A stretch of 64,000 bases of DNA from Candidatus Lightella neohaematopini (GTDB lineage: Bacteria; Pseudomonadota; Gammaproteobacteria; Enterobacterales; Enterobacteriaceae): NCBI GenBank assembly GCA_025728315.1, contig JAOBJW010000001.1, forward strand, positions 153,439-217,438. The letters are read 5' to 3'. The notes beneath the pieces are model-generated. The model was given only the letters and a program-made list of their open reading frames with translations, was not told the DNA's origin and did no database searches. Positions 328 through 45,939 of this stretch are shown here, in pieces. A program made the position numbers and the translations under genes. Position 1 is the first letter of the stretch, and every line of letters starts with the position of its first letter.

Positions 328-968
328 ATGTTATTAAATACTATAATTGTAAGACAATTGGGATTACAACCATATAAAAAAATTTTATTATCAATGCAAA
401 CATTAACCGAAAATCGTGATTATAATACTGTGGATGAAATTTGGTTATTACAACATTATCCAGTATTTACATGTGGATATAATTATAACAACTATAAATT
501 AACTATTCATAATATTCCAGTTGTTAAAACTGATCGTGGTGGTAAAATTACATTTCATGGACCAGGACAACAAATTATGTATGTATTAATAGATTTACAT
601 CGTAGAAAAATTAGTGTTAGTTATTTAATTAATGTATTAAATTACGTAGTAGTTAATACTCTAAAAAAAATAGGAATAAATTCTTATTATTCTAAAAAAA
701 TGCCTGGTGTATATGTGTCAAAAAAAAAATTTGTTCTATTGGATTAAGAATAAGTAAAGGATGTTCATTACATGGTATAGCTATAAATGTGTCGATGAAT
801 TTAACACCATTTAATTATATAAGTCCATGTGGATATAGTAAATTACGTATGACACAAGTAAGTGATATTGTGCCTAATATAAATTTATATATTATATCTA
901 AATTTTTAATACAGGAATTTTTGTATATACTTAATATTAGTAACACTAAATATTATGATCATTTATAA
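328..968 (+). pseudogene. lipB: Octanoyltransferase LipB, reading frame broken in a poly-A run
   Basis: LipB moves octanoate from octanoyl-ACP to lipoyl-dependent enzymes. The frame from ATG 328 matches LipB throughout (VRQLGLQPY, EIWLLQHYPVFT, DRGGKITFHGPGQQ, PGVYV) but hits TAA at 745-747 after 139 residues. The rest of the protein continues without a break in another frame to TAA 966-968, with [21 protein letters not shown] and the ISPCGY motif. The shift lies in ten A residues at 720-729. Eleven A would restore an exact alignment (KKKICSIG). The downstream frame is well conserved, so this is either a very recent mutation, a sequencing error, or a gene rescued by polymerase slippage. The end overlaps the region upstream of lipA, which acts next in the pathway. 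Confidence 0.85.
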
Positions 969-978
969 CATTATTATA

Positions 979-1860
979 ATGAATAAGAATTACTTTTTAA
1001 ATAAACCTAATTGGATAAGAATTAGAATTCCCCAAAAATATAGAAATATAAAGAATACTGAAAATATTATAAGTCATTATCGTGTTAATACAATATGTCA
1101 ATCAGCTAATTGTCCTAATATTATTAACTGTTTTAGTTATGGTATTGCTACATTTTTAATTTTAGGTGATTTATGTACTCGTAATTGTAGATTTTGTAAT
1201 GTTAAACACGGTTTACCAGATAAACCAGATAATAATGAACCTAATAGATTAGCTAAAGCTATATATCAAATGAAATTAAAACATGTAGTTCTTACTTCAG
1301 TTAATAGAGATGACTTATATGATGGTGGTGCAAGTCATTTTGTTAAATGTATTAATACTATTAAAAGATATAATAATAATATTAGTATAGAAATATTAGT
1401 ACCAGATTTTCGTAATTGTTTAAAAATAGCATTAAATTTATTTCAAGAATCTTTACCAGATATATTTAGTCATAATATAGAAAGTGTTCCAAGATTATAT
1501 TCTTTTATTAAACCAGGTTTTAAGTATCTAAATTCTTTAAAGTTATTAAGATTATTTAAAATTAAATATCCTAATATACCAACTAAATCTAGTATTATCG
1601 TTGGGTTGGGAGAAACTTTAGAAGAAATAATAAATACTATGTATGATTTATATAATAATGGAGTAAGTTTACTAACTATAGGACAATATTTACAACCAAC
1701 AAATAAACATTTATCTGTAAAACGTTTTTTTAGTAAAAAAGAATTTTCCTTTCTTAAAAAAGAGGCATTAGTTATTGGATTTAGTTATGTTGCTAGTGGA
1801 CCATTAATTAGATCATCTTATAGGGCAGATCTACAATCATGTGGAGTATTGATAGATTAA
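979..1860 (+). CDS. lipA: Lipoyl synthase LipA (radical SAM)
   Basis: LipA inserts two sulfurs into protein-bound octanoyl chains to make lipoate for pyruvate and 2-oxoglutarate dehydrogenases. The auxiliary-cluster cysteines (ICQSANCPNIINCF), the radical SAM motif CTRNCRFC and the terminal RSSYRADLQ serine motif are all present. I chose ATG 979, which puts NKPNWIRIRIP where other LipA proteins have RKPEWMKIKLP. An in-frame ATG at 955 would overlap the end of lipB by 14 bases and add eight unalignable residues. The protein lacks about 30 N-terminal residues found in E. coli LipA. The lipB-lipA order is enterobacterial, with the intervening ybeF deleted. Confidence 0.95.
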   Translation: MNKNYFLNKPNWIRIRIPQKYRNIKNTENIISHYRVNTICQSANCPNIINCFSYGIATFLILGDLCTRNCRFCNVKHGLPDKPDNNEPNRLAKAIYQMKLKHVVLTSVNRDDLYDGGASHFVKCINTIKRYNNNISIEILVPDFRNCLKIALNLFQESLPDIFSHNIESVPRLYSFIKPGFKYLNSLKLLRLFKIKYPNIPTKSSIIVGLGETLEEIINTMYDLYNNGVSLLTIGQYLQPTNKHLSVKRFFSKKEFSFLKKEALVIGFSYVASGPLIRSSYRADLQSCGVLID

Positions 1861-45387: not shown

Positions 45388-45939
45388 CTATTTCCAACGT
45401 AAAAATGAGTCATAAGACAATTTTATATCAAAAAAATCTAATATACGATTAATAAAATAATTAATTATATCATTAACACTTTTAGGATAACAATAAAAAG
45501 CTGTTGTTAATGGATAAATAACTGCACCTAATTTTGATACATGTAATAATAATTTCAAATGACCAGTATGTAATGGTGTTTCTCTTATAGCTAATAATAA
45601 GTTTTTTTTCTTTTAATGTAATATTAGTTGTTCTAATTATAAGATTATCATTATAACTATTAGTAATTCTAGATAATGTCTTAATAGAACATAATAAAAT
45701 AATTATACCATAAATATTAAATGAACTAGAACTAATACTAGTAGTAATATTATTATTATCATATATTATATCTGATAATTTTTCTATTTTTTATTGGTAG
45801 ATTTGTTTCTAGTTCTATAGTTTTTAGCTGCATTACTTATAATTAAGTGTGTTTGTATATTTGATATTTCTTTTAAGATTTGTAGTAATCTTATTTCGTA
45901 AATTACTCTACCAGATCTACTAATATTGATAATTAGTTT
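45388..45939 (-). pseudogene. ubiX: Decayed flavin prenyltransferase gene ubiX
   Basis: Read on the minus strand, three pieces in different frames rebuild UbiX in order. The first is SGRVIYEIRLLQILKEI followed by IQTHLIISNAAKN. The second is LSDIIYDNN, TTSISSSSFNIYGIIIL and CSIKTLSRITNSY. The third is LLLAIRETPLHTGHLKLLLH, LGAVIYPLTTAFYCYPKS and the ending DSFLRWK with TAG at 45388. At least two frameshifts occur, one next to the eight-base T run at 45602-45609, and a stop codon replaces the start region. UbiX makes prenylated FMN for UbiD in ubiquinone synthesis. The position between folC and nuo agrees with the enterobacterial folC-dedD-cvpA-purF-ubiX order. Confidence 0.88.

Follow-up and report, generated by a model that had tools for sequence, protein, structure and literature searches.

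The lipB gene of Candidatus Lightella neohaematopini is probably a working gene that carries an old, fixed deficit of one base in a run of ten A, corrected by slippage of the RNA polymerase. According to the available text of its description, Lightella lives as an obligate symbiont in chipmunk sucking lice and has a G+C content of 22% (PMC9376444). The window, i.e., the whole stretch of 64,000 nucleotides analysed here, corresponds to positions C7:153439-217438 of the draft L469 (G000), which comprises 463,572 bases in 7 contigs and is 94.94% complete.

The lipB gene consisted of two overlapping open frames on the forward strand, 328-747 and 729-968, meeting in a run of ten A read directly in the window sequence at positions 720-729. 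The upstream frame encoded 139 residues and ended with a TAA stop after KKKFVLLD. The run, where the frame changes, specifies KKK before the conserved IC. The downstream frame provided 79 residues from the ATT at position 729, included the conserved PCG, and was open until the stop at 966-968. On the NCBIfam LipB profile NF010922 (215 positions), the upstream piece covered positions 4-137 and the downstream piece positions 136-210, so the two pieces meet at the A run. The original prediction, that lipB is broken exactly in this tract and that the two frames together make a complete LipB, was borne out by the sequence and by this nearly end-to-end coverage, and the gene looks complete but for a one-base deficit at the run. 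The KKIC and PCG motifs were both present in the seven Lightella drafts, the Lys being encoded within the tract and the Cys by the downstream frame; we take these to be the catalytic residues of LipB. The PCG motif aligned with the solved lipoyltransferase chains 2qht and 2qhs. With the catalytic Lys in the run and the conserved PCG Cys beyond the frame change, the short 139-residue product is unlikely to be active. The 3' end of holA, which starts before the window and is open in L469, lies upstream on the same strand (3-230). On the downstream side, lipA (lipoyl synthase, 955-1860, forward strand, start at ATG 955 or 979) was intact as anticipated: it was open in all seven drafts and scored 364.9 bits against TIGR00510, above the cut-off of 310.25.

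A DNA search for the locus in 40 genomes, the L469 draft included, recovered lipBA in all six congeners, with 87-93% identity to L469. The pairwise DNA identity among five drafts was 86-93% over 188 kb. In the alignment, the A10 run and the frame offset were identical in the seven Lightella drafts: everywhere the upstream frame closed just past the run and the downstream frame was open to the same stop, and no stop or additional indel was present in the downstream frame of any of the seven. In the outgroups, represented by 15 loci from eight genomes, lipB was intact in every genome, six being intact by motif and two (G012 and G018) on further examination. One outgroup (G020) possessed nine A in frame at the KKIC motif. 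The simplest reading is that the break arose along the Lightella branch and predates the divergence of the seven drafts. The comparison with related strains had been proposed as a check together with the original prediction, and both frames and the tract were kept throughout, with no further decay downstream. The idea of a newly dead gene, raised at the same time, fits poorly with a break common to seven drafts, none of which has a downstream stop or indel.

The whole L469 draft was scanned for frame breaks at runs of at least 7 bases flanked on either side by 30 or more open codons, and the hits were judged by eye. Three cases, lipB, dapB and lptB, were taken as genuine, all at A10 runs and all one base short. 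These three were the cases in which both halves were checked against families, and the family matches to both halves support the names dapB and lptB. Most of the hits, dropped by eye according to gene identity, look like overlapping neighbours or antisense frames. The dapB break (G000:C7:91632-91641, outside the window) was found in the seven drafts; in G005 the tail of the short dapB product was not conserved. The lptB break (G000:C6:63403-63412, reverse strand, also outside the window) was found in five of seven. The two intact lptB alleles, in G001 and G005, had interrupted runs, and the five broken alleles had an uninterrupted A10. Overall identity groups G001 with drafts in which lptB is broken, which implies that the frame state of lptB has changed more than once or reverted. 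For lipB and dapB, no change of frame state was seen across the seven drafts. A comparison of five drafts, the list of which was read by eye and may leave further single-draft cases, added two breaks each restricted to one draft: holA at a run of nine A (G005:C2:64186-64194, L059) and murB at a run of eleven A (G006:C6:9943-9953, L112). Both genes were open in G003 and G004, and these two of the five loci could be recent. A seeming break near the end of rnpA, at a T9 run, was attributed to variability of the gene end and left out. The sign of the deficit was identical at the five loci: all lack one base, the kind of deficit which insertion-type slippage corrects.

Insertions predominated in the slippage reported on homopolymer runs in Escherichia coli and Buchnera (PMC5574713, in part), and the accessible part of a review puts the corrected share of transcripts at 12-50% in endosymbionts of an aphid and of an ant (PMC5009743). 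We propose the following course of events for lipB. Most transcripts would carry ten A and would be translated into the 139-residue product, devoid of the C-terminal third. The RNA polymerase would slip on the run and add one A in a fraction of the transcripts. These A11 transcripts would be read straight through to give the full-length octanoyl (lipoyl) transferase, in an amount sufficient to lipoylate the E2 subunits of the pyruvate and 2-oxoglutarate dehydrogenases. We infer the slippage itself, its direction and its amount, as well as the activity of the product, from the DNA.

Such a situation has precedents. Genes frameshifted in poly-A tracts and rescued by slippage were described in Buchnera and Blochmannia (Tamas et al. 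2008 and Wernegreen et al. 2010, as cited in PMC3017870). As in Lightella, the available text of that article describes AT-rich reduced genomes, a one-base change in a long A run of a gene otherwise intact, and a frame offset common to several species. The Lightella cases differ by the symbiont genus and, as far as seen in that text, by the genes concerned. Intact alleles with an interrupted run standing side by side with broken alleles with an uninterrupted run, as observed for lptB, were likewise a difference from the cases presented there. In Blochmannia vafer, eight genes frameshifted at homopolymers were listed, as compared to three in L469, and were judged potentially functional on similar grounds, four of them evolving without unusual acceleration; three genomes were compared, as against seven Lightella drafts, and lipB, dapB and lptB are unnamed in the portion available (PMC3017870). 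The tssM1 gene of Citrobacter rodentium, in which slippage on an A11 run yields about 20% of full-length product, is similar in that the A run shortly precedes the stop of the first frame with no Shine–Dalgarno sequence or structure nearby, but both products are required there, according to the part of the article at hand (PMC4256274), whereas no sign of a use of the short product was seen in Lightella.

The main rival would place the correction in translation, by a -1 ribosomal frameshift on A AAA AAA instead of an RNA polymerase event. The dnaX-type -1 frameshifting relies on an A-rich slippery heptamer, an upstream Shine–Dalgarno-like stimulator and a downstream structure. The heptamer was recognized by eye, in frame, within the lipB, dapB and lptB runs of L469, and a ribosomal shift would correct the same one-base deficit. 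A GG was also present 12 nt before the run in the seven lipB alleles. However, in the 19 A10 alleles (seven lipB, seven dapB and five lptB) the 25 nt preceding the run contained none of the 4-mers AGGA, GGAG, GAGG, AGGG or GGGA, unlike dnaX. The folding of the 71 nt following the run, compared with shuffled sequences in one draft per gene, was at chance level for lipB (z -0.10) and lptB (z 0.18), and borderline for dapB (z -1.52, with 13 of 200 shuffles as good). In the consensus fold of lipB, none of the 21 pairs was compensatory. Of the dnaX-type signals, lipB thus displayed the heptamer, with neither the Shine–Dalgarno-like stimulator nor the conserved downstream structure, and the element common to lipB, dapB and lptB was the run itself. 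A ribosomal origin of the correction appears unlikely on this basis, and we take transcriptional slippage to be the most likely mechanism, unstimulated ribosomal slippage being its main competitor.

Slippage alone does not explain why the frame has not returned in lipB and dapB. It is conceivable, although we regard it as rather improbable, that the A10 of lipB, dapB and perhaps lptB is kept on purpose, the slipping fraction setting a low dose of enzyme. Selection would then hold the run at ten and uninterrupted, barring a return of the frame. This would explain the lack of frame change in two genes and the pairing of the intact lptB frame with an interrupted run.

The evolution of the shifted frame was compared among the drafts. 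The dN/dS of the downstream piece in its shifted frame was 0.342, 0.418, 0.319, 0.388, 0.140 and 0.240 in six pairwise comparisons, which together involved every one of the seven drafts except G004. The values of the upstream piece ranged from 0.16 to 0.32. For the background, four pairs including G000 with 391-398 ORFs each gave medians of 0.166-0.247 and 95th percentiles of 0.331-0.435. The downstream piece of G000 reached 0.342 against G001 and 0.418 against G002, the corresponding background 95th percentiles being 0.340 and 0.331. Since its two closest pairs lie at or above that percentile, the constraint on this piece may be somewhat relaxed in L469. The variable sites among the seven drafts were distributed as 17, 15 and 36 over the three codon positions of the shifted frame, with the highest number at the third position. 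In a neutral simulation with substitutions only, no indels and rough branch lengths guided by pairwise dS, the 82-codon downstream frame was open in all seven tips in none of 2000 replicates (mean 0.38 of 7). The original statement that the downstream frame is conserved thus holds, the frame being open in seven drafts and constrained in the pairs tested. These results argue for purifying selection on the downstream frame of a gene otherwise intact.

The purity of the run was considered as a proof of selection and rejected: the amino-acid constraint on KKK explains part of it, and it was kept as weak support. Among codons that are AAA in G000 and still specify Lys elsewhere, 70.5% were AAA in all five drafts compared, and three such codons in a row would survive in about 35% of cases (hand calculation). 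As AAA Lys codons are often unchanged anyway, run purity is weak evidence by itself. In G000 ORFs, 6 of 81 control runs with 9 or 10 A on the sense strand were identical in all five drafts, versus two of the three frame breaks (hypergeometric probability of about 0.02, calculated by hand); among A10 controls alone, 2 of 12 were identical.

A need for LipB is suggested by the remaining gene content. In the L469 draft, 94.94% complete, PF21948 (LplA/LipB catalytic domain) matched nothing but the two halves of lipB, and no salvage ligase was found by this profile search. Three matches to PF00364 (biotin/lipoyl domain) corresponded to AccB, an AceF and a SucB, and aceF and sucB were open. Lipoylation should therefore depend on LipB, lipA being intact, the E2 genes kept and a salvage ligase not found. 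The argument made earlier, that an intact lipA speaks for a pathway still in use, is strengthened by this single LplA/LipB source and by the presence of aceF and sucB. AceF, whose single PF00364 match lies at G000:C7:115344-115550, is encoded by an open frame of 388 aa and shows GKA at the lipoyl-lysine motif, which is usually DKA. As for the other two genes, two LptF/LptG-family genes, partners of LptB, were open in L469, and lysine synthesis, which needs DapB, is counted as retained in the published Lightella reconstruction (PMC9376444, text available in part).

In this context it is very unlikely that lipB is a pseudogene in a bacterium obtaining lipoate in some other way. The frame is indeed broken in the DNA, two G000 pairs reach or exceed the background 95th percentile in their downstream dN/dS, and other Lightella genes are eroding, such as ubiX, ubiD and a ubiF-like gene, which are open in G002 but broken in both G000 and G001. 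But the ubiX remnant, in contrast to lipB, has scattered indels, and the downstream lipB frame is open in seven drafts with a dN/dS of 0.14-0.42 and variation biased towards the third position, in a genome which has kept lipA, aceF and sucB with no second PF21948 match. The ubiX remnant was located at about position 45,600 of the window on the reverse strand (about C7 199,040), and corresponds to an open frame of 193 aa in G002 (C7:17992-18573). With ubiD and the ubiF-like hydroxylase also open in G002 and broken in the other two drafts, some Lightella lineages may be losing the ubiquinone pathway in parallel.

The remaining question was whether the deficit could be a sequencing or assembly error, the true genomes having eleven A. 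The L469 draft contained 587 A or T runs of 7, 260 of 8, 83 of 9 and 16 of 10, and no run above 10 over its whole length. In addition, the drafts were all produced by one group with one assembler, as the available text indicates (PMC9376444). Against an artefact, the run-length counts drop steadily with no pile-up at 10, and nine A11 runs were present in the four other fully read drafts, which indicates that the assembler can report A11. For eight of these nine, the frame containing the run is open over 40 or more codons to either side, and each of the four drafts has at least one such run; the murB break of G006 accounts for the ninth. Three drafts share one A11 at an identical position in the gene. 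Furthermore, the seven drafts, which come from separate lice, all have the A10 of lipB, and the read lengths of 100 or 160 nt, as given in the portion of the article available, far exceed the run (PMC9376444). A systematic loss of one A is unlikely, and an error at the origin of the lipB break, an option left by the original prediction, is accordingly highly improbable. A mutational trap, in which A11 would always contract to A10, was also considered and is weakened by the A11 found in an open frame in three drafts. Each of the 16 A10/T10 runs of L469 fell within an ORF of 60 aa or more, with A on the sense strand in 15 cases, and a single one of the 99 runs of 9 or 10 was intergenic. A profile search with MutS (PF00488) gave no match in the G000 genome. 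L469 probably lacks mismatch repair of errors in run length, and the failure to find MutS fits with unstable runs.

The possibility that LipB functions as two separately translated, associating polypeptides, for which the conservation of both pieces could speak, is extremely unlikely, as the first ATG, GTG or TTG of the downstream frame in the window is the GTG at 789 (59 aa), with the loss of the first 20 residues of this piece, including ICSIGLRI, and dapB and lptB would need the same arrangement.

Transcriptional slippage on the A10 run, the first of the three options named with the original prediction, is thus our preferred explanation for lipB. The kind of phenomenon is already known from Buchnera and Blochmannia, the additions being the genus Lightella, the genes lipB, dapB and lptB, and the paired lptB alleles. 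In the available text of the Lightella paper (PMC9376444), a term search showed no mention of lipB, frameshift or slippage, and no report of the Lightella cases was found in the literature covered, to which most subscription journals did not belong. The lptB alleles represent a natural test, the sister drafts allowing the comparison of A10 and interrupted tracts.

Lipoylation, the synthesis of lysine and cell-wall precursors, and the export of lipopolysaccharide involve genes that bacteria can seldom spare. In automatic annotation, such genes may end up labelled as broken and the corresponding pathways as incomplete. The present observations extend probable slippage-dependent expression to a symbiont of blood-feeding lice.
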